Source: Odontesthes bonariensis
Lineage: Eukaryota; Chordata; Actinopteri; Atheriniformes; Atherinopsidae
Assembly: GCF_027942865.1 (NCBI RefSeq)
Contig: NC_134506.1
Coordinates: forward strand, 15,274,436-15,338,435
Reading direction: 5' to 3'
Length of the DNA: 64,000 nt
Part shown: positions 933 through 33,000 of the stretch, in pieces
How positions within the stretch are numbered: the stretch's first letter is position 1
Layout of the letters: each line of letters begins with the position of its first letter
Notes under the pieces: generated by a model
Database searches by the model: none
The model's input: the letters and a program-made list of their open reading frames with translations, nothing else
Told to the model about the DNA's origin: nothing
Made by a program: the position numbers and the translations under genes

Positions 933-1589
933 TACTATATGGGTCAATGACATATAAGGGTTGGCATGATGACAAATTTAAAAATATGTTTTCAACCTGT
1001 TAAAACAACATGACCAAAGACCGTTAGAATGTATATTTTGCATTTCTGTTGGTTTCATAGTATTTGATATGACATTTCTACCATTTTTAAGCAAATACAG
1101 AGCTAATGGCCCATTATTTTGTCAAATGGTGTAACCACAAAACAATTCATATTTATTTGATATTTCACCCTCTAAGATTTTATGTAAGTGTAGCCATGAA
1201 AACAAGTAATTGATTTTCAAATATCACATGAAAAATATTTTGTTATATCTATTTTTAAATTTAGATTACATGGATTTTTTTATCGAGCCGAGCAAGACAG
1301 TATGTTGTGAACATTTAAGTTTTCTGCATATTCCTTGACCAGTTGGGTAAAAATGGTTTTAAAACACATTACTACAGTGTACTTGAATACTTAAATCTCA
1401 TCCATAGTAACTTTTTTGTATAATATGAGATTTTTGGAAAAAATACTGGTTACGCCAATTGACACATCGGTTACACCAACTGACCATAAAACATCTACAG
1501 CAAAAGGACAAGAAATTGACACAGAAAATAGTCATCAAGGTAAACTGAATTGGATATTTTAATACTCCATATCAAAAATGATTTCATAA

Positions 1590-1888
1590 CAACAATGAAG
1601 AAACAGGATTAATTTGTGATCTATTCTGGATTAATTTGTGTTCTATTTCAGTTCAGATCTCATACAATTTCAGTCTATACCCATTGTTTTCAAAAAGAGT
1701 AAGAGAAAGTGTGTGTGAAAGAGAATAAGAGTGAGTGAAAGAGTGAGTAAGATCATATCTTAACAACCATGAAGAAACAGGATTAACTTGTGATCTATTC
1801 TCATACAATTTCAGTTTGTAAAATAACAGCCTTTGCTTTCAAAGAAAGAGTGAGTGAGAGAGAGTGTGTGTGAGTGAGAACAAGAGAG

Positions 1889-1919
<31 letters not shown>

Positions 1920-1930
1920 GAGTATCATCA
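1590..1930. repeat. Diverged tandem duplication with GA-rich and (AAAG)n microsatellite
   Basis: The phrase ATGAAGAAACAGGATTAA and the following bases occur near 1594 and again near 1768, each followed by CATACAATTTCAGT and a GAGTGAG/GTGTGTG-rich run. The second unit ends in an (AAAG)n tract at about 1887-1919. This is a duplicated unit of roughly 175 bp inside the 3.3 kb element. Confidence 0.6.
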
Positions 1931-2149
1931 TTCATTGTGAGAGAGTATCATCATTAATTTCTTTCATCACTAAACTGTTCGGATTACACTTTTAAAAACC
2001 CGAGAACCATCAGTGTAAGTTCATGCCATCTGATGAGATCTGAACAAATTATTTAACATTAACATAACAATATAAATGAAACAGCGTCTCAGAAACGTAA
2101 GACTTGAAATATTTCTGCCCAGAAAAGTTGAGTCTGTGGAAGAAAGACA

Positions 2150-3093
2150 TTAACCTTTCAAGTTGTGTGCTTGGAACTGTTTCCAGGCATCTTCTGTTAG
2201 TTTGGAATGACGTGAGTTCACAGGTTCTGGCTCAGAAATAACGTGGAGAACATCAGACTCGTAATAAAACAAGATGTCAGGTGGATGAGGCCAGGTGAAG
2301 ACATTCTTCTCGGCTAGCTGTTGCATGCAGCTTACCTCAACTTCATCCCCAACCACCTGAATGATTTGCCCCACAAATGGTTTGCCCTCGAATCGAACAA
2401 GAGCAAACTTTCCTTGCCTACTTTCCTGATCCTCCACGCTGTCAGGTGTTGAAGTGGTGGCTGGTGGATCCCGGAAATCAACTGCAGTTGGCCCATGACA
2501 CTTGCAGACATTGGGTCTTCTGCAAAAGCAAGAAATGTCCCAGTACTGAATGACAGCTGGCTCTTCACAGGTCACTTGATGTATCTTGAGTGTGCCTTTT
2601 ACTGCTGGAATGAAGGCCGGGACTTTTTCATCATATAGATTGGGAGTTAGGTTTAGAACATCAATAAGTACCCTTTTGTTCTCCCTATACTGTCTCTGGT
2701 ACTGCTTCCACCTTTTCCTCATCTTCTCCTGATTCCGTTTGGAGAGCTGTGCTACTGGGGTGTTCACAATCTTTCCCTCTCCCTTCCTCCTTTGGTAGCT
2801 ATAAATACAATGTAAAAATAAAACAATTAGCCTTTTATATCTAGAATAATCCTCTCACTCCTCTCATTTCCACAGCCTATCTACATCACTGACTTTATTC
2901 TTCACATGAAAAATGTGCGTGTGTGTGTGTGTGTGTGTGTGCTTGCATGCCTGTGTCCGAATGTGTGTGTGTGCATGCTGTTGCGTGTGCACTACCTTGC
3001 CCGTCTTTTTGCCAGGTAAATTGCTTTAGCAGCAGGATCTGCGTTCACTTGCGCTCTGTGGCGAGCCACTTTTTCCTTGCTTGTAAGTGGCAT
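2150..3093 (-). CDS. Unassigned 248-aa protein of the 3.3 kb element (two exons)
   Basis: Exon 1 is 2996-3093 (ATG at 3093, starting MPLTSKEKVARHRAQVNADP) and exon 2 is 2150-2798. A GT donor after 2996 and a TATAG acceptor before 2798 join in frame (98 + 649 bp = 249 codons including stop). The N-terminal third is strongly basic and helical (ADPAAKAIYLAKRRAR, RKRWKQYQRQYRENKR), a pattern I associate with proteins recurring in many copies in fish genomes. The middle has a compact Cys/His cluster, CFCRRPNVCKCH, likely zinc-binding. The C-terminal part (RQGKFALVRFEGKPFVGQII, then PHPPDILFYYESDVLHVI) has the look of a small beta-barrel of Tudor or SH3 type. I do not recognise a catalytic triad. 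Role is unknown; DNA or chromatin binding for the element is an inference. Confidence 0.65.
2915..2941. repeat. (TG)n microsatellite
   Basis: A run of GT dinucleotides sits just downstream (minus sense) of exon 1 of the unassigned element gene, within its intron. It is about 13 repeats and may differ between copies. Confidence 0.85.
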
Positions 3094-4403
3094 CTATTGG
3101 GGGACAAGAAGTACACTTTATTTATAATAAATGTATTATTTTTTGTATTATTTATTCATAATTTAAACATGTTTACATACAACATAATAAAATATTCAAA
3201 ATATATTGTGGAAGTTAAAATTTTAAATAAAAAATATTGACATTTCAAAAATCACTTAAAATACAATCTAAATGAAACCCTATTAAAGCTACTGTTCATG
3301 CTACAGTTGGTCACTATTTAAATTAGAAAAATAATACAATTGCCACCTTAAATTACATACTCTTTGGCCTGAATCTGATCAAATTGTTCTCAAACAGAAA
3401 GGAGTCAAATGGTGTAACCGGTTACAACATTTGACATTTCTATTTAAAATCAAAATTTGTAGGCATTATTATGGACAACTATGTACACACTTGACCTTTA
3501 TGTGAATATTCAAACACAGTTTTTACATTAAATTCAATATTTTATGATTATTATGGTTTATCAACATTTTAAGGAGGTCATACCATTTGACATGTAAACT
3601 AAGCTTGCCTGACCATGGCCTAAAAACACTTAATTATTAACAATTTTAAAGAGAGTTACCACAGCCCTTTTATGGCGTTACTAACCTTGACTCATAGCAG
3701 TTGGGGTCTTCAGGGGTCCTTCTCTGTGACATCATTTCCTGTCACATGATCTTCTGACTAATAGCAGAGAGTCTCTATTCTGTATTGTGTTCTGTAAAAG
3801 TCTGTAAATACTTACAAAATGGCTCCTTAAATGGCGGTTACACCACTTGACATTTCAAGTGGTTGATGTGACAGACATGATTCCCCATATTCATTAAAAT
3901 ATTCAGAACAATGGGATTTCATTACTTTTATTTCATATTGTAAAGTTCTTATGCAAGATCAAGCCAGATTATTTTATAAGGGATTTCAGAGAGAATTTCA
4001 CATTTTTTTCAGCAAGTGTAATTATTTGGTTCATGTTTTTGTGGTTACACCATATTGACATTTTTATCCAAATTCTCTCAATACTCTCTAAAATTGAATA
4101 AATCCCAAACTTTAAGATTAGGGTTTGATGAGAATGGTGTTGGAAAATAATTTGTCAATTTATTTTCAAATTTTAACAATTTTAAATGTATCTAACCCAT
4201 ATGTACACAAAAAAATGAGCGTCACGTCATTGACCCATATACTATATACCATAAATATACAAGTATATATATGCATGATAGACCCAAAACAACATGCTGC
4301 GTGGACTCTTCCAGACGGTTACATAACAAGAAAACAGTTCAGCTTCCGCGAGATCAGACTTTGCGACAATTCGTCAGAGGAAATCGCCAGGGAGAGCAGA
4401 CCG

Positions 4404-4436
4404 ATGGCTGCGGTCCTCCAATGTAAACTACATTAG
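4404..4436 (+). promoter_or_regulatory. Short upstream ORF in the KHDC4 leader
   Basis: An ATG at 4404 opens a 10-codon frame (MAAVLQCKLH) ending in TAG at 4434-4436, 41 bp before the KHDC4 start at 4478. It lies in the likely 5' untranslated region, whose start I cannot fix. If transcribed it could reduce translation of the main frame. Confidence 0.45.
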
Positions 4437-4477
4437 AAGCAGCTCAAATTTCATTGTCGATTTGTTGGAGTAGTGCT

Positions 4478-7400
4478 ATGTCTTCGGGAATGACAGGACA
4501 AACGTCGTAAGTATTTGTTTGCTTTGAAATAGATGTGATAATGCCAGCAACGTGCTAAGAAGCTAAAACCACACTGCATATTTTCGCCATGAGCAAGCTG
4601 GCTAAGTAAGCTAACATTGGCTGCGGTGCTTCGGTTGGCTAGCAAACGACTAACAACCTGGCCTTTAAGGAAAAGTTAGCTTTTATGGGTTTTGTTTGCA
4701 CACTAAAACGTCGATTCAAGGCGTCTGGTGTAACGTAATGTTGCCAGAATAACCCAGCACAACCTTACCTTGAAATCAAAGTGGATATTTGATGTTGCGA
4801 ACAACCGAAATCTGAATCGTAATTTGATACGTTAGCTAGCTTAGCTTTAGCTTCAGCTTCAGTGTCTGTTAATGCTAACTTACTTGTGTTGTTTGTGTAG
4901 TCAATAGTAACTCCCGCTTGTTTGGTATAAAAAGCTTATATTCTTTCAGCTTTCCCCAGAACATATTTTGAACATGCCGTACCTTTTTAAACAGAGAAAA
5001 TTCCCAGTCCTATTCTGCCTTTCTAACGTTTCACGATGTCAGTCTTTCTTCATTTTAGCGCCATCATAATTTAGCACTTTTTTTTTTTTTTTTTTTTAAA
5101 TGACAAATTGCTAAAAAGGCAAATTAAGGTCAACAAATCGCTTCCTACATGGAAGCTTGCTTGCCTTGAAATCAAATATGCCAAGAACGTTATGGGTGGG
5201 ACTGCAACACAATTCCTTTAACAATGTCATCAGTAGATGATCGTTACTATGCGGTAGGTCACATATTAGAAGTTGCCTGTCTGGCTATAAACATTAGGTA
5301 CCATCAAGCCATTACAGAACAGTGACCCAATAGCATAAAGTAGAATCATACCCAGTGTGAAAAAGTGTTGATAGATATGAAAAATTGTGTGGTTAGCTCA
5401 AATTATTACATTCAAGCAGTTATGTCGTGATTGAGTCGAGTCTAAACCTAATTTTTTGTCTTTTCTTTTATTCTCAGCTGCCTAAACAGTCGTTGGGATC
5501 AGCCAGCCCAACCTAAACAGAATGTAGATGTACAGCAGCAGAGGAGTATTGGAAATGCACCTCTACCTGTCTCTTTATCAGGAGTTGTCAGCTCTGCGGG
5601 TTCAAATAGCACAGTCTCCCAGCCACAGGAAATGAGAGAAAAGTCTACTCCTCAAGGAGTTGAGATGGCAGCAGCAATGGCTGCTAAAATAAATGCCATG
5701 TTAATGGCAAAAGGAAAGCTTTTGACTCCTCCACCGTTACTTGCAAAGGTGCGTGTTTTTAGAAAACTTTAATTATTTGTGCGTCTAATTGTGCAGTGCT
5801 GAATGACTGAGATTGTTTTTGGTTTTTTTTGTTGTTGTTTACTTCTCATCTTTAAGACACCTCCAAGTATCCCTGTACCAACCACTACAGAAGAGGTGGT
5901 GGTGACAGAGGTTGACATAAATGATGTTCCACTAAACTGCAGGGATCTTCTTACTAAAGGCAAAACGCAAGAAGAGGTAAGTAGGAAACATGCATATTAG
6001 TGGTAGATCTGATGCACCACATTCAAGAAAAGAAAATGGGGTATATAATAAGTTCTAATTATTTCTTATCTTTTCCAGATCCGACAGTTTAGTGGGGCTG
6101 TTGTCTCAACAAAAGGTTATTACATGAGTGAAGCTGACAAGGGAAACGGAGGAGGGTATGTATTCACCCATGGCTCAATGTTTTGGGGTTGGTTTTGTTT
6201 TTCCAATGCATTATAATTTATATATTCAAGGTCCCGTATCATGAAAATGTGTTTAAGCAAGGTTTATAAAAAAAAATAATAATCATACGTAAAACATAAG
6301 TCTTTAAGTCTGATGTCATTCCTCTTGCTCCTTTCAACTAGACTTTATCCAGACTTTACTTCAGTAAGAATTTTCACCCAGTTTCTGCACTGCAGTTGGA
6401 CAACTAATCGTTGCTGAGCTATCAATTTTCACCTTTTGTCTGGCTCCTTTTAGATTGAGCCACTGATCTAAAAAGCGAAAGGTTACCAGGCACTTCTGCT
6501 ACTTCTAAAATGTCTCTGCTCCTTTCAAAACGGCAAATGTTCTGTAGTTGGTTACAAAACACAGGTCTTTAATGCCTTTTTTTGTATGAGGTATGTTACT
6601 ATTTAATTTATTATCAACCGTAGAAGGGGGCCTACACCCACTATTTTTTGCCGAATAGACAAGGTTGGTGTGTACTGCTCTGTTCTATTCTTTCTATTGT
6701 CAGACAATGAAGCAAGTCTGAAATGGTAACCCAAATGCAGCACATTCAGGCCCTAATACCTTTTCACCCCTTGCCCCTCACTTTAGGCCCTATCCTTCCA
6801 TTTTGTGTTCACATGAAGGTAGTTTGTCCTGTTTCGGTTGGAGTTGGGTTACACAAACAGATGAACAGTGTTTCCACACAGTTCAGATCAACGTTCAGTT
6901 TTAGCAAAGTGATTGCATTACATGTACATGCACACATTCATTTAACATTATGGGGGGAAATGATTACTGGATGGAATTTAGCATCCTGTTTATGTCAAGG
7001 TTGGGCCTGAGACTACATGTTAATCCATTCACGTACAAGTTATTTTACAATCTGCCTCTGACAAAATAAATGTATACATAATTCAAAATAGCTGTATCGT
7101 CATTTTGGCTTTATTTACCTTTTTAAAATTATCTCTGAAAATTGGAATTTCAATAGACCGTTTAAGTTTCAGAACTCTTACAGGAAATGCCCCACCAATC
7201 CCTAAGAAATGCTAGATGGAGACTAAAAAATCATACTTAGTACTTTTAATGAAAAAAATGTCTTTTCAAATATATTATTGAGCTTTACGGTGACTGAGGA
7301 AAAATAACTGATGATGGTCTGTGTCCTCTCTGACTGTTAATTTGCTTTCTTTTAGAATAAGACCTTTGTATTTGCATGTCCAAGGAAAGACTCAAGAACA

Positions 7401-10400
7401 GGTCAACAGTAAGTCACACTTCTCTTTATCTTCTCTGTAAAAAAAAGGCTTGCATTGTCCTCATTTGATGTCATTCGCTCGTATTGTAATTATTCCTAGG
7501 CCTGTGTTTGTGACAAGTGGCAGACTTTCACCGATTGTGTGCTTGTTGCAACATTAGAGGCTGTGTTGAGGATAAAGGAGATCATCTCTGAGGATGTGCT
7601 GAGGGCCTCTGCAGCGTCGGGGGGACAGCAGGTTCCTGTAATACCACCACTCACAATCTACCCTCAGCCTCCTCGACCCGCCGTTCCCTCTCCCGTGTCA
7701 CGGACGCCCAACAACAACTCGGTGCCAGTCCAGGGACATCGGCCTGCAGCTCCTCATACAGGGGTAGGGAGACATATATGTGGTCCAATTCAAGCAACTA
7801 CAACCAGTAATGAAGCATTTGTTAAGGCTTTCTTGCAGTTTTATAACCAGTGTGATCGCGTTAATTTCAGTGTTACATAAACTCTTACAAGGAGGACAAG
7901 CTGTACTCTGCATATCATCATATTACTTGTTTCTATCATGTCTCCTTTCTTTTTGTCATATTAAACATGATTAAGATACTAGGAAGCTCGACATTGTACT
8001 CCTGTGGTATAGATTTCCTTATAGAGGTCCACAATAAAGTTTTTCATAGGCAAGAATCCATGGAAAAAACTTTAGATGTATATCATTATCATGTTACTCA
8101 ACGACATAAAGAAAATTTGGATTATACTGTATATAATTAAGTATACAGACATAGTGACCTGTGTTTTAAATTTGTTGTACTTAAATTCTGTTTAAAAATG
8201 GAGGTAAAGAAAGTGAGGCAAGTAAATATGTTGCCTTCACTGATACCCACCTCCAAAAACAACTAGCAGAGAGAACATCCCTGGTCTACAGTAAAAAGCC
8301 TTGGATTACTGCATCTGCTGACAAAACATTTTCACTGGCAGCTGAACATATTCCCTTAACTTAAATTTGGTAAGTATATTAAAAGACTTTTGTTTTTTCT
8401 TTCATTCATCTTCAGAGTTTTGTGCACACAAAGATTTTTGTGGGTCTGGATCAAGCGTCGAGTTCATTCAATGTAAAGGAAAAAGTCGAGGGTCCAGGAG
8501 GTTCGTATCTCAGTCATATCCAGACAGAGACCGGGGCTCGAGTCTTCCTCCGGGGAAAAGGATCTGGTTACATTGAACAGGCGTCAAAACGAGAGTCTTT
8601 TGAGCCTCTCTATGTCTACATCAGGTATGTTCATTCTTGGTGAAAGGTCATTTGACCTGTTGTGCTCGGTGGAACGCAGTTATGTTTTATTGAATTAAGT
8701 AAATTAATTCAAATCCATGTTGTGTGGTTTCATTTTTGAGCCCTGCCTGCGTGGAAATGCTGAAACCTCTTTTGTTTTGCTCTCTGGGTCCTTTACCGAG
8801 CCCGCTTCATCCTTTAACAACAAGGTTTCTTTGTGTCACAGCCACCCAAATGCAGCCGGATTGGAGTTGGCAAAGAAACTCACTGAAAGTCTGCTGGAAA
8901 CGGTAAGTTTGTGAAAATGTCCCGATAAATAGGATGTATGTGAGTGAGTTCATCTATATTTGAAGCGAGTCTATTGGGAGGTATAAGAAGGTGAAACTAC
9001 TGAAGCGTGTAGTTTTCACTGATACCCACCTCCAAAATTGACTGTGGTAGTGTGAACCACCTGATCTCCAGAGATAGGTCATGAGTGCTCTGCACCTACC
9101 CACAATCCCATTCAATTAAATGAATCAATGCAGCCTTTGTGGAAATTGCCTAGCTCATGAAGTCCTCCTTGTTTTCTCTCATTCTCCAGGTGAGAGATGA
9201 ACACGCCCGAACGGGTTCAGCGTACACAGCCACAGGCTCAACACAATGTGAGTATTCTAAAATCCTGTTGCTCAACTTATTCAAACGGTGTGACCAGATA
9301 TAAGTAATGGCTAACATCATCCCTCTTGTGATGATCATCCCATGGCATTTTTACAATAAGTTGGAAACGCACATTACAGTTGTCAAGTACACCCTGTTCT
9401 TGATCCATGTGATATATGCTATTAATTCAGCATTCTATACTGTCATTTCAGCATACGCAGCACATGGATTTACCCCTAATAGCAATTACTCTAACCAGGG
9501 GTCCTGGTATAACTACCCAGCAAATGGGTATGCTGGTGGCTATGCGGCATATCCAGGAGCTGGTGGTTATTGGAGTAATGCAAATGGTTCCCCAAGTTCT
9601 AACATGTCGACAAACCCTCCATCTTCTCAGGCAATGATTCAGTATCCGGTGTGTCCTAGGAAACCGCATCCCTATCTTGTTCAGGTAATTGTTGAAAATT
9701 AAAGCAGTTTGTTCTTGATGGTTTTTTTTTTGTTTGTTTTCATGTTTAAGAATATTAGTTTTTATCTTCAGGGTTTTACCCTAAATTGCTAGTTAGTACC
9801 ACGAGCATAATAAAACATGAAACCTTTTTGAGGAGTTTTATTTATTTTTTTGAATCCCATGGCAGCTTCAGTATATATGTGTTGGTTGTGCTCTACTTAA
9901 GGATCCAGGCAGTAGTGATACGGTGGAGCCTGAAGGATCTTTAAACAGCCCCCCTGAGTCAGGAAGTCCCAAACATCATTTCCAGGAGGAGGGAAAGGAT
10001 GAACAGGTTAGCTGGAGAGTAACGCCTGTCCATATCACTGAAAGATAATTCTGTCCATTTTAGCACGAACGTGTCCGTTAAAATGTTTTGACCTGACCTG
10101 CTTGTTGTCTGTTCACTTGGAACAGAAGCCTCACTGCTACACAACAAAAATGAAACAGAATTACACTTTAAGCATCTTCGAGCATTTTTGGCTGTCTGAT
10201 TCACATCTTTTTCTGTAATAGTCTATATGCTTATGTCTTTGATCATTTTTAGAGTGTTTAAAAATAGTTTTTGCTTGCCGACTAATTGCTGCCTTTCAAC
10301 ATAAAATGCAGATTTAGCTGCAACTCTGGATTCTCCCCGCTGAATAATTTGATTTATATGCAGTCAGAGGAGGAGACCATGTAGGATGATCAAACATGCT

Positions 10401-18817: not shown

Positions 18818-19859
18818 AAGAACAGTTACTGTGTCAGGGCAGAGGTTAACAAGTCACTTATGATCAAAGTTTCTGATACAAGATCCCTTTAGTTAGGTTT
18901 TCGGTTCTTTATGTGAGCAATCTATAGATCAATAGCCATTTAGAATAATACAGCAGAATAAACACAGACAGTTTAAGAGCTCTTCATATTTAAGTGACTT
19001 GCCATTGCAGAGAAATCTGTCCATTAACAGTAAATAAGCAGCTGATAATACAATTACCTTGCCGGTTTGTTCTAAATAACCATTTCAGGGCAGCGGTGGT
19101 GTCTGACCAGAAAACTGCCGAGTCCAACCCTCAACCAGAGACTGTGACAAAAATATCTGTGAATCACATTGCTCAAATGTCACTGGCATGTCAAACATTC
19201 ACCCAGGCCACGTGTCGTTTAATGTATAAAACTTCAAATCTAGCTCAACCAGATGGAGGAGTTTAGTCAACACTGAGGCGAATTTATACCAGTTTCTGCG
19301 TTGTCATTTGATTTGTTATTAGGAGATGGAAATCCCCGAACATGTGATCCAAAGGTCAAAGTTGAACGCAACTCAAGGAGCAGGGTGATGCATTCACGCA
19401 CCTTGTAAACGCTACAATCAGTTAGCGTAACACCCTTGATTTCTATATCCGAATTTTGACCAATTTTCGATTAGTGAATTCAATTTTTAACTCTCACTAT
19501 TCAGTCATTGTTACTTTGTTGTAAAAGATCAAGCTTCACTGCACTGTTTTCTTTTGAGCAGTTGTTAGTGAAGAGAATTTGCCTAAAAACCTGAAATGGA
19601 GCGTTACATCTACTTAGCTAAACATTGAAAGAAAAATACAGTGATGTCGTTACTACCTCTATTCTAACGGTCGATTCTTGTAAATAGCATGAATGTTTTT
19701 TTTTTCCTTTTATAATTTTTTTACGCAACCAACATTTAAGTTTTTGATTGTTCCGAATTATCTTTGGTACTTGAATGCAGCTGACGTCACACCAATGGCG
19801 GACGTTGTAAACAGAGCCAACAGCTTTTCGGAGGCCAAAGGGAAACCTCTGTTTTTAAG
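18818..19859. other. Shared upstream region of FSD2 (-) and WHAMM (+)
   Basis: The two genes are head-to-head about 1 kb apart. The half near WHAMM has CpG-containing leader sequence and a CRE (19782-19789). The half near FSD2 is AT-rich, with no element I can name. Further non-coding 5' exons of either gene could lie here. Confidence 0.5.
19782..19789 (+). promoter_or_regulatory. Consensus CRE with adjacent YY1-like ATGGCGG
   Basis: TGACGTCA, the palindromic ATF/CREB site, lies 5 bp before CAATGGCGGAC (19793-19803), which fits the YY1 core often found at or just after the start site of housekeeping genes. Both sit within 80 bp upstream of the WHAMM start codon, pointing to a compact promoter here. 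Function is inferred. Confidence 0.6.
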
Positions 19860-19872
19860 ATGGACAGCGTAG
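19795..19872 (+). promoter_or_regulatory. Out-of-frame upstream ORF overlapping the WHAMM start
   Basis: An ATG at 19795 opens 25 codons (MADVVNRANSFSEAKGKPLF, then 5 more) and stops with TAG at 19870-19872, overlapping the WHAMM ATG at 19860 in another frame. If transcription starts upstream of 19795, this would repress WHAMM translation. If it starts at the YY1-like site the ATG may be lost from the mRNA. Confidence 0.5.
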
Positions 19873-22800
19873 AGTTTGACCGGTTAGACAGTCTAGAGGG
19901 TTGGGTGGCCGTCAAAAGTAATATATTTGAAGAAAACGAGACGTTTAAGCTGGGCTTTATAGTGCAGTGGAATGTCATCGAGTCGAAGTTCGCAGTCACC
20001 TGCCACAACCGGACGCTACAGCGCCAGAAACGCAAAGCCGAAGTGACCGTCGGCGACACTCAGATGAGCTGGGCTGGACTCTTCTCCGTTAACGATTTGA
20101 AACACATCCACCAACAGTTTTCCTGCGTGGCGGACGTCCTGGGCGCTTGCTTCCCGGATCTCTCAGAGTTTGAGGAGAGCAACATTTGGGACTTGCTGTT
20201 CCTTAATCGGAGGTCAGGTCCCGAGGATGACGATGAGAGGGATTTTGATACTCCGTGTAGGAGGCTCGAAAAATATTTCAGCACAGCCATTGACCTCTGC
20301 GGACGAAAAATAGTTCTGGAAACTTTATTCACCCAGGATGAGCGGGACGTTGAGGAGTACTTTGAAAACCTCCAGGAGTTCAGAAGGAAGACGATGCAGG
20401 AGGAAATGTCAAGGGCCAAGAGTCACCTGAGACAGGTGAGGGGTGTAACAGCAGTGGAAAAGCAGGTTACAGTGAGCCACAGGTGCCACTTCTATAGCTA
20501 TATAAATATTTATATAAATATATGTATATAGTTCAACCCAAAGGTATTCATAGTCTTGCAAAATTTTGATTTAAGGGGATTTTTTTTCATTTGAACAATG
20601 GGTTTCTTCTGATTGTGAAAGACAAACAATAGCAGCCAATGAGAGAGCCTGATCTGCCACTGCAGCACTCAGATAGACAGTCTCTGCTGGGATTCAAGAC
20701 TTCTTCTCTTTTGTAAATATTTCCGCATCTTAGGGACTGGATGGCCTTCTTGCCACCTGTCTTGTGCCCATTTCTCAACTGTTGGCTGTATCTTATTTAG
20801 TATGTTTCATTGGAGCCCCCCCCCCCCCCATTTGAATCACAAAAAAAAGCAGGACTTGGTGAATAACTCTTTATGTTCTATATTTCCATAAAGTTACAAG
20901 CGTAGCCTGTGGGCTAGCACCACACAGTGGTGGTGTAAAGCTGAAAGGCAGGCCTGCTATGACACAGCAGACACTTGCAGCTGGTGTGTTACAGTCTTGA
21001 ATATTGCAACACTTTCAGCATTGGTGTTTGTTTTCCCTACTTTTAAGATGAATAAATGGCAGTATTGTAAGAAAAGATTCAAACAGTTTGAGGCAATGAA
21101 AGAAATGCAACTGTCACGTTGTCGGTCACATCTCCACAATCCACAGTCCGAAACAACAACCCAGAGGCAAACTGAATATTTAGCAAAAGCGTATGAGGTT
21201 GTTGTATCAAAGTTGTATTGAACTTTGCCTTATGTGTAAAAATCAAACTCAACATGTTGGGCCTGATCCATGTATGACTGCAAGAATCCCCGTGGTATTT
21301 AACTATAAATCCTCCTCGAAGTGGCTTTACAAGTCCCAGATACCTACTTCCGCCCACCCGGGTTGTATTTAGAAATTACTTGGATCAACTCGAATCTGAT
21401 TGGTACACAACAAAACAGCTCCCCTGGAGAGATTTCAGTTTTTCCAACTCTTCTGACGACAAAGACGAGGCTCGGTGGGCTTGGAATAAACCCGGATCAT
21501 AGTGTTAATGTGTTGCGTTGCTTATAGCTGCTGCAGACTCACAGCAGTGCTGGCCAACTGGTCGCGCTGCTCAGAATCTACGAGGAAGAAGACGAGGCTT
21601 ACCAAGATTTGGCCACTGTCGCCACCACCTTCTTCCAGTACCTGCTGCAGCCTTTCAGAGACATGAGAGAGCTGGCCTGCCTTTACAAGATGGAGATCCT
21701 GGTAAATGCAAAGCTTTTTTTTCTTCTTTTTCTTTTAGAATTTGTAAAAAGATTTTGTACAGGGACACATTTTGCTGTTTCTTTAAAATAGATTTAAGGA
21801 ATCTAAACCTTCCACAATAATGGAAGAGAATCTTGTTTACAACACAATACACACGTCAGCGTTAAGTTTTTAGCAGATGAATTACAAATCCTAATTTAAA
21901 ACCCCAGAACATAGTTGTGTAACTACAACATGATGCCACTGCAACTACTTTATGACATTATAATGGAAAGATTGAACTGTTTCAACATGTCTGTTTAGGC
22001 CTTGATTATATAGATATTTTTGGTGGATCCACTGACGTAGTTCAATGTGTTGATACTCCATTCAAGAAAAAGTGTTTTGTTTTTTTTACTAAACTCCCCG
22101 TAAATAAAAGACTAATTTCTTTGAGTTAACAGTTTGTAAGCTGTATGTACTACATCACTGAGTGTAAAGCTGTCTGCTGTTTTTTTTTTTTTCTTCTCTG
22201 ACTCTCTGCAGAAGTCTTTGGAGTTTGAGGACTTGGGTCCCAAGAGAATTGCTGCTCTGGAGAAGGAGGCGGAGGAGTGGAGAATGAAAGCAGAAGATGC
22301 AGTCGCCTCGATTCAGGACATCACTGTCACCTACTTTGCACAAACTTCAAAGGCTCTGGCTGGTATGAGTTGCAGGGTTTATTTTTCCTTTATTTATGCA
22401 TGGATCGTGTCATTAATGAATTTTATGTGTCACACGGGGAAAAGAAAAAGCAGGCAGCAGTCTGTTTTTTTTTTTTTAATTGCAGCTGCTGAAAACTTAT
22501 TTATGAGGTATTCAAGTAAATTCAAACAAGTGCAGGCCAAGAGTACATACCTGCTCCAGAGGCAGAAGGATAAGAGGAAAACAAAGTGTTCAGATCCAGA
22601 TTCATCACAACTTCGTCACTTCTATTTTCATGCACATATGTCCAAAACGTTTTGAGTTGTTCTGCTTAAAAGAAAAAGTGCGAAGCACATATTCTCTTTA
22701 GTGAAGGAAACAAAGCACACATTAATATGTTCAATGGAATGAGTTTAAGTTGTTTCTTTAAACAAGTCTTGTCCTTTTTTTCGCAAAAAAGGGCATCCTG

Positions 22801-25800
22801 TCAAAAAATCTTTGTACTTGGGAAAGTTCCAAACCAGGTTAAGGGTCATTCACAGTCACTACACGCAAAGGAAAGAAGCTGCAGTGGTTCCTTTAGTGTC
22901 GCTTTACCAAAGGAAACAGGAAGTGGAGATAACCCGGGTCTGACAGTTCTGACGGCCACAAAACTCAAAGGGGTTATTTTCATACAGTCATCCCAACTGG
23001 GGTTCATGTAAACAATGAGGACGGGAGGGGTGAGTTTAAACAGCTTGTGACAATATCTTTCACTTTTGTGACTGTTTATTTTTAATTGTATCTTATTATA
23101 CTAATATGAAACATATCATTTGGCCTCAATTAAGCAGTTTGATAGGAACGCATTAGCCAGCGTACACGCTGTGCTTTTCATGCAAATTCTTCTTTGAACA
23201 GCTGTAGTTTCACGAATGCAAAACCGCACCACTTGTCGTAAAGGAGAAATTTGTTTTTTTAGAAACCTGGACCTTTATTTTTGGCATAAAATTTGTTCAT
23301 CTACTCACCTCGTGCCGCTGCAGCACAGCTTATTTACTCTGTGCTCTGTGATGGTCGGTTAACTTCACACGTAGTGTGTTACTGCTAGTTTTGTGCAGAG
23401 TGAATGAGCTGTGCTGCTGCGGCGCCCGTCGATGATGTCATCCCAGTAGATGCGTGTGTAGAAAGCCCCCCTGATGGCCCCTAATAACAACAACATGGCA
23501 GCTCTGAACTAACCGTGCAATAGTAGCGTTCATTCATTCATTCGTCTTAAAGTATTGGTGAAATAAAGACAGACAATGCCTTATTTAGGGGCTGTATTCT
23601 CTATGCCCTGTTCTCTCCTGTTATATGGATATACGCAGATATCGAGTTATCTCAATATTGTCCGAAGGACGCCGACTTTCCCCAAACTGTTATCGGTGAG
23701 TAGATGAACGTATTTTCCATCCATCCATCCATCGTCTTCCGCTTCTCCGGGGGTCGGGTTGTGGGGGCAGCAGCTTAAGCAGAGAAACCCAGACGTCCCT
23801 GTCCCCGGCCTCTTCCTCCAGCTCTTCTGGGGGGACCCCGAGGCGTTCCCAGGCCAGCCGAGAAACATAGGCTCTCCAACGTGTCCTGGGTCTTCCCCGG
23901 GGCCTCCTCCCAGTGGGACGGGCCCGGAACACCTCACTGGGGAGGCGTCCAGGAGGCATCCTAACCAGATGCCCGAGCCACCTCATCTGGCTCCTCTCGA
24001 TGCGGAGGAGCAGCGGTTCTACTCAGAGCCCCTCCCGGATGACCGAGCTTCTCACCCTATCTCTAAGGGAGAGCCCAGACACCCTGCGGAGGAAACTCAT
24101 TTCGGCCGCTTGTATTCGCGATCTCATTCTTTCGGTCACTACCCACAGCTCGTGACCATAGGTGAGGGTAGGAACATAGATTGACCGGTAAATCGAGAGC
24201 TTCACCTTCTGGCTCAGCTCCTTCTTCACCACGACGGGCCGGTGCAGAGCCCGCATCACTGCAGACGCCGCACCGATCCATCTGTCAATCTCTTGCTCCA
24301 TTCGTCCCTCACTCGTGAACAAGACCCTGAGATACTTGAACTCCTCCACTTGGGGAAGGATCTCATTCCCAACCCGGAGAGGGCATTCCACCCTTTTCCG
24401 GCCGAGGACCATGGTCTCAGATTTGGAGGTGCTGATTCTCATCCCAGCCGCTTCACACTCAGCTGCGAACCACTCCAGTGAGAGCTGAAGGTCACGGCCT
24501 GAGGACGCCAACAGAACCACATCGTCCGCAAAGAGCAGAGACCCGATTCTGAGGTCGCCAAAACGGACCCCCTCAACGCCCTGGCTGCACCTCCTGAATC
24601 CGAGATTTGACTATCCTCCTCTCCAGTACCCCCGAATAGACCTTACCAGGGAGGCTGAGGAGTGTGATCCCCCTATAGTTGGAACACACCCTCCGGTCCC
24701 CTTTTTTAAAGAGGGGGACCACCACCCCGATCTGCCAGTCCAGAGGCACTGCCCCCGATGTCGACGCAATGCTGCAGAGGCGTGTCAACCAAGACAGCCC
24801 TACCACATCCAGAGCCTTGAGGAACTCAGGACGAACCTCATCCACCCCCGGGGCCTTGCCACCGAGGAGTTTTTTGACCACCTCAGCAACCTCAGTCCCA
24901 CAAATGGGAGGCCCCACGTCCGAGCTCCCAAACTCTGCTTCCTCATCGGAAAGGCGTGTTGGTAGGATTGAGGAGGCCCTCGAAGTATTCCCCCCACCGA
25001 CTCACGACGTCCTTGAGGTCAGCAGAGCCCCGCCCTCACCATACACGGTGTTGACGGTACACCGCTTCCCCCCCTGAGCTGCCGGATGGTGGACCAGAAA
25101 CTCTTCGAGGCCGTCCGGAAATCATTCTCCATGGCCTCCCCGAACTCCTCCCAAGCCCGAATTTTTGCCTCAGCAACCGCCGAGGCCGCGTTCCGCTTGG
25201 CCCGTCGGTACCCATCAGCTGCTTCCAGAGTCCCACTGGCCAAAAAGGCCCGATAGGACTCCTTCTTCAGCTTGACGGCTTCCCTCACCACTGGCGTCCA
25301 CCAGCGGGTTCGGGGATTGCCGCCACGACAGGCACCGACCACCTTACGGCCACAGCTCCGGTCGGCCGCCTAAACAATGGAGGCACGGAACATGGCCCAT
25401 TCGAGCTCAATGTCCCCCACCTCCCCCGGGACATGGTTGAAGCTCTGCCGGAGGTGGGAGTTGAAACTCCTCCTTACAGGGGATTCCGCCAGCCGTTCCC
25501 AGCAGACCCTCACAATACGTTTGGGCCTGAACGTATTTTATGCCAGAAATAAGTTTTTAAAGTTTAAAGTTTAAAAAAAAACAAAACAACGAACTTCCCC
25601 TTTAAGTGTGGTCGGATTCTCATAGCAGAGTGGCTGTTTTTTACCAACTTGTTACACATGGCTTCTACCATCTTTTCTTAACCTTATGATGTTTACTTAG
25701 AAGGTCAAGAAAAACTGGCGAGCTACTTTACTGGACCATACCTTTGCCATTCGTACTACATTATGTGTTGACGTCGGGCAGCACCATAACAGTCTTTGGC

Positions 25801-30080: not shown

Positions 30081-33000
30081 ATGTGAATATATTCAAAGGT
30101 TTATTATCATTTTATAGGTCTTTGCGGTCACTCGCTAAGTTTCCAAAGTTTCAGATTTTCCAAAACTTTAAATGGATAGTTCGCCTCTTTTGACATGAAG
30201 CTATATGACATCCCATATTAGCAATATCATTTATGAACATTGACTTACCCCCCGCTGCGTCCTGTGAGCGGAGTTCCAGCTGAGTTTTGGGGTCCACGAA
30301 GCTAGTCCGGCTAGTTGGCCGGGGCTTGAAAAATAAAGCGTTTTGCGTCTCAAAAAAATATGCGTTCAAAAGAGTAATACATTTGCATCACAAAATCGTT
30401 CTGATGAAAAAGTCAGACCTCACTTCGATTGGCGCTATTTTTGCCTCCCTTGATATCAATGCGTCCAATGTAAAACTGTGCAGACCGAAGAGCAGACCGA
30501 AGAGCAGACCGAAGAGCAGACCGAAGAGCAGACCGAAGAGCAGACCGAAGAGCAGACCGAAGAGCAGACCGAAGAGCAGACCGAGCCACCTAGCGATAGC
30601 CGCACCTGTTACGGTGTTTACTGCTCGGTCTGCACTTCGGTCTGCAAAGTTTACATTGGACGCATTGATATCAAGGGAGGCAAAAATAGCGCCAAGCGAA
30701 GTGAGGTCTGACTTTTTCATCAGAACGATTCGTGTGATTCAAATGTATTACTCTTTTAAACGCATATTTTTTTGAGAAGCAAAACGCTTTATTTTTCAAG
30801 CCCCAGCCAACTAGCCGGACTAGCTTCGTGGACCCCAAAACTCGGCTGGAACTCGGCTTATAGGACGCAGCAGGGGGGTAAGTCAATGTTCATAAATGAT
30901 ATTGCTAATATGGGATGTCATATAGCTTCATGTCAAAAGAGGCGAACTATCCCTTTAAGACAATACATTAATGATACATTTACTCAGACTGCATTTGCAG
31001 ATTTCTGCCTTAAAGGAGAATTCCGGCCATTTTACAAACATATCCCATCTGTTGGAGACCCAGGGAAGTTTGCCAAAGGGAAAACCGCGAGAAATATTCA
31101 TGCCCGCTGCGCAAAGTTGTCCAATTGGGCTGATTTCCATGAAAGCGGGCTCTTTCGGGCAAGCGTTTAACCTTTCCTGAGGCTTAGTCTTAACGTGTAT
31201 CAAAATACTTTTTACCGGATTGGCCGTGGTGTCAGTAGCAATACAATTCAACCCAGGGGCTAACCATACCATTAGCTAGCACAGACATTATACATTTTGA
31301 GATTTCAAAAACAGCGCACCTACCTCTCTCAGCTTCCGTGTTCCACAGGCGTGCGCACAAATCGATCGCCTAAGTCATATACTAAAGTATTACAAAATTG
31401 TCTTTTATGGTTAGCCTCTGGGTTGAATTGTGGGTCTCCAACAGATGGGATATGTTTGTTAAATAGCAGGAATTCTCCTTTAATTTATAAGGCAACAACA
31501 GTAATTTCTCAAACTTCAGTTATTATTTAGCTAAATCCAGTGAGAAAGCTGACTTACTCCATTGACTTTGAGTAATGATTCATCCTCTAAGCTGGGAAAA
31601 GGACAGTAGGCTTCCAATAAACACGTCATCTCAGAGTTATTTTTAGCATTAGACCTCAAATGAATAAGATTCCCTGACTTGGTGTAACCTGAACAACTTT
31701 GGTTGACGTGAAAATTCAGACCCGATTGTATGTCCTGTTTGAAAAGTTTACATCGAGTCAACATGGTGACAAAAGAGAAGTTGGTATAGTCAAAAGTAGC
31801 ATCTGAGGAATTGTGGTTGCATGAGTTAAATAGAGAAGGGCTGGACTCGGAGTGACTGGACTGTGTTTGTGACTCAGAACTGAAGGAGGAGGTGGTGTAT
31901 TATGATGTGTGTGAGGATCCTGAGGAGCTGCAGAGCCTGGTCCACACTGGTGTTCATCAGTCTCCACTTATCAGTCAGCTCAAGAGACGCCTACAGACCC
32001 TGGAGACCAAGAGAGGCAACATCTGTGCCCGCAGGGCTTACCTCCGCAACAAAAAGGTGTGGAAGAGTGCAGCTGAGAGTCGTCTGCTTTTTACGTCTCA
32101 GTCTCATCAAATTATTCATTTCTGCCTCATTTTAGTTCTTTTCTCGGGCAAACTTCAGTAGATGTGGAAATAAGCAGAAGTATTTGTAAAAAAAAAAAAA
32201 AAAGTTATTGTCCCTCTTGTTTCTTGAGTTTTTTTTATGCCTTAGCTATATTGTTTTATTTTTAGCTGACAGTGATTTAAGCAGCATTTTCTTATTCTGC
32301 TCGTTGTGTGACTTTCAGCTTGATTATCCAATTTATAACTGAGTAAATTTGGAAAAAGACCCTATTTAGAGGCACCCACAACTCACCTGCTGTTATCTAC
32401 AGGAAGGACATAGTTGCTTTTATACTTACTGATATGTGTCTATGACAAACTGCACCTTAGTAGTTTTGAGTATCTGCTTTCCTAACTTTTGCGTGTCTGT
32501 AGGATCAGTGCATCGAGGCCCATGAGCAGAAGCACTTGGCAGGAAAGCAGAGCTCTGTACTCTTCAACCAGCATCACCAGGTTCACCTGGTACGTCACCA
32601 CGGCAACAAAGCAACCCACACAGACACTCCTGCACCAGCAGAAGCGGCAGATGAAACTGGATCCAATTCTTTTTCTCTGCTAGCTCTCAGTGTCTCCCTC
32701 TGTTGTTCGCAGAAACGAGAGAAGAGGAAGGAGGAGGAGCAGAGGAGGAAACAGTGGGTGGACCTGGAGCGAGAGAAGACTCTGAGCAGATTACGATCCT
32801 TCAGAGAGGTTAGTCTCCCTCATTGTCTCCCTCTCTTCCTACTCTGGCTCTTTTTCCGTTAATGAAACCTCAGAGGTTCCTGATGCACACCTTCATCATT
32901 CAATAGTTCACCTGAAAATTCAAGCACAGGAATGAACTAAGTTCTGATGATCTCATGCTTTAAATGAGGTAGTCTTTGTGGTAGTGAACCGTCTCACACC

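Follow-up and report, generated by a model that had tools for sequence, protein, structure and literature searches.

The window, a stretch of 64,000 nucleotides of Odontesthes bonariensis (contig NC_134506.1), carries near its left edge a DNA transposon copy of 3296 bp at 941–4236, which encloses a gene on the minus strand. The gene reads from an ATG at 3093 through a splice donor after 2996, a second exon from 2798 and a stop codon at 2152–2150. It has a GT-AG intron and is open over exactly 248 codons in two exons, just as the preliminary description of the locus had said. That description placed the element at 938–4239 with 14-bp inverted ends, took the TACTA on both flanks for a 5-bp duplication and recognised no transposase. 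The inverted pair (938–951 and 4226–4239) is indeed a perfect 14 bp and is bordered by TACTA on each side; the borders, the target and the nature of the gene are read differently below. The coordinates of the features are collected in Table 1.

Further copies of the element, a point the preliminary description had raised, were found with both ends in the window's own assembly (945 Mb, 187 contigs; one genome). These searches score the best candidates, and the copy numbers are lower bounds. The left 163 bases gave at least 9 matches at 98–100% identity and the right 163 bases at least 7 at 96–100%, the window included in each case. The surroundings of the eight other left-end loci are designated L009–L016. 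Over most of its length the element aligns with L009–L013 and L016 at 98.3–98.7% identity (a divergence of about 1.3–1.7%); L014 and L015 have only about the first 168 bp in common with it. L016 is cut short by about 55 bp at its left end, and L010 by a few at its right end. Five copies of this subfamily have both ends: the window copy, L009, L011, L012 and L013. A 43-bp segment of the window copy (3762–3804) is absent from all six other copies that span the place, and is either an insertion here or a shared deletion elsewhere.

Comparison of the copies sets the subfamily ends at GGGTCAATGAC...GTCATTGACCC, which gives the borders 941 and 4236. The left-end sequence common to the copies runs from GGGTCAATGA onward, and the right end is TCATTGACCC. 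The left end of L012 reads GGATCAATGAC, with GGATCAATGA as its variant of the shared start, and the right end of L009 and L016 reads ATCATTGACCC. Outside GGGTCAATGA and TCATTGACCC the flanks diverge, except that L014 and L015 have their left flank in common. Because the copies share nothing beyond these sequences, the terminal inverted repeat (TIR) of the window copy is 11 bp.

The flanking 4-mers within the subfamily are ATAT/ATAT for the window copy and L009, GGGT/GGGT for L011, AGAA/AGAA for L013 and ATAA/ACAA for L012. Two related families have ATAT/ATAT in L050, L051, L052 (left side taken from L055) and L053, and ATAA/ATAA in L054. A 4-bp duplication is thus exact in nine of the ten two-ended insertions examined, and L012 has one mismatch. 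ATAT accounts for six of the ten; the others are ATAA (L054, once), AGAA (L013), GGGT (L011) and the imperfect ATAA/ACAA (L012). Unoccupied sites are available for two insertions. The repeat interrupted by L011 returned 40 matches, two of them the flanks of L011 itself; five loci were aligned, and in all five the joint is the one predicted for a 4-bp duplication. Within the satellite that hosts L052 three units are unoccupied; they share the 27-base context of the insertion and read (AT)4, against (AT)3 to either side of the element at the occupied site. A search of the assembly for an unoccupied L013 site returned nothing but the two L013 flanks.

The target-site duplication is 4 bp long, ATAT at the window copy, and is not TACTA. 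Since the other copies and the unoccupied sites fit a 4-bp duplication, the 14-bp repeat owes its outer TAT/ATA to the target, and the TACTA pentamers are a coincidence. By itself the window copy would also fit different inverted-repeat borders with a duplication of TACTA (5 bp), TA or AT (2 bp each). We give these variants hardly any chance: the subfamily's four other two-ended copies (L009, L011, L012 and L013) have no 5-bp flank repeat outside TATGGG, nine of ten insertions have an exact 4 bp with GGG/CCC ends, and 4 bp is also the length seen at the unoccupied sites for L011 and the L052 satellite. The single-copy target that the preliminary description had associated with empty sites is present at those two insertions, both other than the window copy, with a length of four bases in place of the pentamer. 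One further candidate was a 2-bp duplication with ends one base further out (TGGG/CCCA), which also fits nine of the ten insertions. It was dropped since the 4-bp reading fits equally often while matching twice as many letters, and since the unoccupied sites demand 4 bp.

The exon-2 protein (215 residues) was compared with the genome by tblastn and gave at least 66 matches. Residues 1–53 match C16:38608551-38608709 (94%) and residues 52–215 match C16:38610087-38610578 (96%), on the same strand and with about 1.4 kb between them. Locus L016, which holds this C16 copy, is 98.3% identical to the element and has the same right end and a truncated left end; it carries 1383 extra bp at window position 2642. 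The missing length is a multiple of three, and the single joint lies inside the gene. The extra segment of L016 encodes HVDFSENYSCKL...HFGGSRKQATIHT and GKGAPDGVGGAVKR; it reads HVDFSENYSCKLNTEIQAFHFGGSRKQATIHT and then, after an internal loss, GKGAPDGVGGAVKRLAD, and continues directly into NLYDEKVPAF of the window protein. L016 is itself broken: its frame is interrupted, and it is without the 52 core residues that match L033 346–397. Residues 1–71 of the window protein align to L050 33–101 (35%, E=1e-5) and residues 88–241 to L027 (37%, E=2e-33). Five family proteins used as tblastn queries against the 64-kb window found the C-terminal stretch at 2174–2635 only, plus one match at E=0.86.

These alignments make the 248-codon gene a transposase gene with an internal in-frame deletion: its N- and C-terminal parts are joined and the predicted catalytic middle is lost. 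The protein is read as joined transposase ends because L016 carries the same gene together with 1383 bp that encode part of the core. The element thus carries a transposase gene in truncated form, and part of the core that it has lost is present in the sister copy L016. The window protein gave no match at curated cut-offs in Pfam, and exon 2 none with E below 0.05 in PHROGs and the PDB. Single-sequence structure models have mean pLDDT (predicted local distance difference test) values of 36 and 44, too poor to use, and at that quality they neither show nor exclude the Tudor label once given to the C-terminal stretch.

Relatives that retain the core are present in the same genome. The core frame is uninterrupted over 501 codons in L033; frames with the core motifs span 350 codons in L027 and 518 in L038, and L050–L052 have an 896-codon frame from stop to stop, with L052 differing by one codon. 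The core motifs are HIDF or HIDY, SDGP..QY and E..HG.G..DG. In alignment A6 (five sequences) H278, D280, D361, G362, E394, H397, G398 and D403 are invariant, with both E394 and D403 as candidates for the third acidic position. All of the acidic core positions are missing from the window protein and fall within the 1383 bp deleted here or the 52 residues lost in L016. The pattern is probably that of a DDE/DDD nuclease. Identity to L033 is 39% for L050 and 48% for L016. The five frames of the relatives have no Pfam family at cut-off, no integrase match and no NCBIfam match; a family profile had no significant match in the PDB, and besides the transposase frame no second frame of at least 200 codons was found in L050–L054.

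The relative L050 is 4730 bp long (L050:362-5091) with a 28-bp TIR. L051 and L052 are each at least 99.9% identical to it, over 4.4 and 4.6 kb. The three copies of this 4.7-kb relative are in all probability a very recent burst.

A 17-base motif that the first reading overlooked, GGTTACACCATTTGACA, is repeated within the element. At up to 3 mismatches there are 7 copies in the element and 0 in the remaining 60.7 kb of the window; with 4 mismatches allowed, the numbers are 7 and 3. The copies lie at positions 180-, 508+ and 529+ of 3296 in the element and, to the right of the gene, at 2463-, 2480+, 2636+ and 2896+. The outermost two (window 1120–1136 and 4043–4059) are inverted relative to each other and subterminal, at 179 bp from the left and 177 bp from the right end. 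The corresponding L050 motif, TTTCGGTAGTGACA (up to 2 mismatches), lies at 188-, 528+, 548+, 3921-, 3941-, 3967+, 3982+, 4137+ and 4326+ of 4730. In L053 (1619–5784, of the L033 family) copies like TCATGTGGGGCGACCA are present. The first begins the series at about 180 bp from the left end, and an inverse copy lies at a distance of about 170 bp from the right end; the left arm of L053 has four copies in the same orientation, unlike the -,+,+ of the window element and L050. In all three families the first motif site is thus about 180–190 bp from the left end, and two of the three have the -,+,+ left arm. We read the motifs as putative family-specific binding sites, the sequence of which may have changed while part of the layout was kept. 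Three families with a partly common layout and different site sequences would lend themselves to a study of how the binding site of a transposase changes.

The element at 941–4236 is most probably (roughly 93%) a DNA transposon of the cut-and-paste kind in a non-autonomous form, shortened by an internal deletion, with 4-bp, mostly AT-rich duplications. The transposase of the relatives comprises a basic N-terminal region, a core with the invariant acidic positions and a C-terminal part that holds a cysteine cluster. One deletion has taken out the core and fused the N- and C-terminal parts in frame to give the 248-codon gene. The invariant acidic pattern suggests that the core acts as the nuclease. 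With the core acidic positions missing, the element is non-autonomous and moves in trans if at all; movement would require that its ends be acted on by a full-length transposase, from its own family or a close one. If the 248-residue product is made, it could attach to the repeated sites and would be unable to cut. L009, L011 and L013 have one deletion joint, identical letter for letter, at three targets with the duplications ATAT, GGGT and AGAA; the likeliest account of this is that an already deleted form moved. A nuclease located elsewhere, as once proposed for a two-component system, is near the mark as far as catalysis in trans goes, and the organised system gives way to a deletion derivative.

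Several points weigh against this conclusion. Among the matches listed, the element's own subfamily has no member with an intact core; L016 is the sole one with much of the core, and it is broken. In the core search the matches listed beyond L016 are short fragments on C19 (66–83%), other short ones at up to 67% and matches of more than 300 residues at 51% or less. As the 2642 joint recurs in none of the six other long copies compared, the window copy could have undergone its deletion after it inserted. For the window copy itself movement in trans is putative, as is the expression of its predicted 248-codon gene. One possible helper is the L053 family: its left end GGGTCAAAGACGTGACGC is close to the inverse of the window right end GGGTCAATGACGTGACGC, and its right end resembles it over the first ~9 bases only. 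We infer from these ends that the family is a candidate cross-mobiliser.

The truncated protein might have been retained as a repressor of the KP type, which would occupy the repeated sites or the ends, or form dead complexes with full-length transposase, and so restrain transposition. The intact start, intron and stop of the frame would suit such a role, as would N- and C-terminal regions that match the relatives around a missing core. There is a precedent in the P element, where repressors can often be encoded by small non-autonomous copies, the 207-aa KP protein being one of them (PMC7776569). The absence of the 2642 joint from the other long copies speaks against retention, and so do the codon changes. 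The comparison with L016 gives 6 synonymous and 8 nonsynonymous changes, where the neutral expectation is 75.4% nonsynonymous and P(8 or fewer)=0.10. Against L009 there are 5 of each (P=0.07), and against L010–L013 there is no nonsynonymous deficit (P 0.36 to 1.0). None of these tests is significant; the two lowest values (L009 and L016) lean to constraint, as a full-length ancestor would also leave. At a divergence of about 1.3–1.7% an open frame can persist by youth, and one random deletion in three keeps the frame. We consider the repressor role unlikely, with a small but real chance. Improbable in our judgement is the combined proposition that a lineage without a Pfam or NCBIfam model, with families that keep part of the binding-site layout and swap the site sequence, has in the window copy a natural regulator that binds DNA and is dead in catalysis, a vertebrate counterpart of KP.

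A domesticated host gene, with the fusion taken over by the host and the repeats left as vestiges, is a very improbable alternative. The two-exon gene is intact and lies near frames that look like a host gene, but both terminal repeats are perfect and the target duplication is intact. The codon changes moreover show no significant departure from neutrality at the low divergence from the other copies. That the 248-residue protein is an unusual mobilising enzyme, as first proposed for the sole gene of an element with intact ends, has practically no probability left, with every invariant acidic core position inside the 1383 bp missing here or the 52 residues missing in L016. As a non-autonomous deletion derivative, the window copy looks like a young and fairly ordinary element, not a new kind. 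A false lead, a transposon without recognisable transposase, is replaced by a young, copy-supported derivative of a core-bearing family.

Other features of the window were observed as well. A perfect 29-bp inverted repeat with a 1-base spacer lies at 490–548, near a frame at 6–221 that we take to resemble the Myb/SANT-like gene of Harbinger elements; this frame has no Pfam match. Directly downstream of the element, exons in 4300–7877 presumably resemble khdc4/BLOM7 (two frames tried, no Pfam match), and the element may sit in the promoter region of that gene. A gene with the WHAMM-JMY N-terminal domain (PF15920, E=1.4e-91) is located at 19785–20528. A reverse transcriptase fragment at 24026–24610 (RVT_1, E=9e-6, below the family cut-off) is probably a relic of a long interspersed nuclear element. 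Next to the truncated left end of L016 there is sequence about 92% identical to two window stretches (30174–30952) that flank a 12-bp tandem array at 30480–30584; the sequence is a repeat.

Table 1. Features of the transposon copy in window coordinates
Feature	Position	Strand	Basis
Left target-site duplication ATAT	937–940		Sequence; other copies; unoccupied sites for two others
Left TIR GGGTCAATGAC	941–951	+	Outermost sequence common to copies
Repeated motif, left subterminal, 179 bp from left end	1120–1136	-	Motif search
Two repeated motifs, left arm (1448–1464, 1469–1485)	1448–1485	+	Motif search
Exon 2 with stop; basic region fused to C-terminal transposase part	2150–2798	-	Sequence, genome matches
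C-terminal stretch, earlier called Tudor-like	2237–2416	-	Homologous to C-termini of longer relatives
Cysteine cluster CFC-x5-CKCH (SCFC...C.C in relatives)	2495–2530	-	Comparison with relatives
Internal deletion joint; 1383 bp of L016 missing, in frame, 1-base overlap	2642–2643		Alignment to L016
Intron GTAGTG...TATAG	2799–2995	-	Sequence
Exon 1, start codon 3093–3091	2996–3093	-	Sequence; first 71 residues align to L050
Back-to-back motif pair (3403–3419 minus, 3420–3436 plus)	3403–3436		Motif search
Repeated motif, right arm	3576–3592	+	Motif search
43-bp window-copy segment	3762–3804		Missing in 6 of 6 other spanning copies
Repeated motif, right arm, 384 bp from right end	3836–3852	+	Motif search
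Repeated motif, one-base shift, partner of 1120–1136, 177 bp from right end	4043–4059	+	Motif search
Right TIR GTCATTGACCC	4226–4236	-	Copy comparison
Right target-site duplication ATAT	4237–4240		Copy comparison, sequence

Viral, phage and prokaryote sequence collections gave no match, which is little informative for a fish element. A literature search by the terminal and repeat sequences returned no transposon paper by title, and one by core motifs returned nothing. In complete IS3EU families the termini are TA..TA and the duplications usually 6 bp long (PMC10045372). The TA..TA termini resemble the borders first drawn for the window element, but its ends are GGG..CCC, its duplication is 4 bp and the five frames scanned have no integrase match. 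ISL2EU (PHIS) elements occur in teleosts (PMC9179366). Their inverted repeats usually start with GG, the 2-bp AT duplication lies inside A|AT|T, and most have a second gene with a YqaJ domain (PMC4482050). Teleost presence and repeats that start with GG are common to both; the duplication differs, with 4 bp here in place of 2 bp. As to a second gene, none of at least 200 codons is present in L050–L054, and the five frames scanned have no Pfam match above cut-off.

The KP protein itself lacks the catalytic part. The window element resembles KP and other internally deleted P elements of Drosophila in its internal deletion, in a short gene without the catalytic part and in the retention of ends and internal sites (PMC7776569). 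It differs in belonging to another transposase family and in a duplication of 4 bp, compared with the 8 bp stated for zebrafish P-like elements in the same source.

By termini, duplication length and size the group fits the Sola superfamily, a likeness by published traits and not a membership. Sola elements have DDD transposases, 4-bp duplications and TIRs from 11 bp, and most are 2–9 kb long (PMC10741241). Amoebozoan Sola2 elements encode an 888-aa transposase; those of one species have 12–13-bp TIRs and AWWT duplications and those of another 21-bp TIRs with ATAT, AAAT and ATTT (PMC3627910). The window element, with its mostly AT-rich 4-bp duplication (ATAT in 6 of 10), 11-bp TIR and 3.3 kb, resembles both Sola and Sola2, as does the relative L050, with 4.73 kb, a 28-bp TIR and an 896-codon frame. 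The targets GGGT and AGAA of the element's family are a difference from Sola2, as they are not AT-only. For the DDD triad of Sola, alignment A6 offers the invariant D280 and D361 and, as the third residue, E394 or D403.

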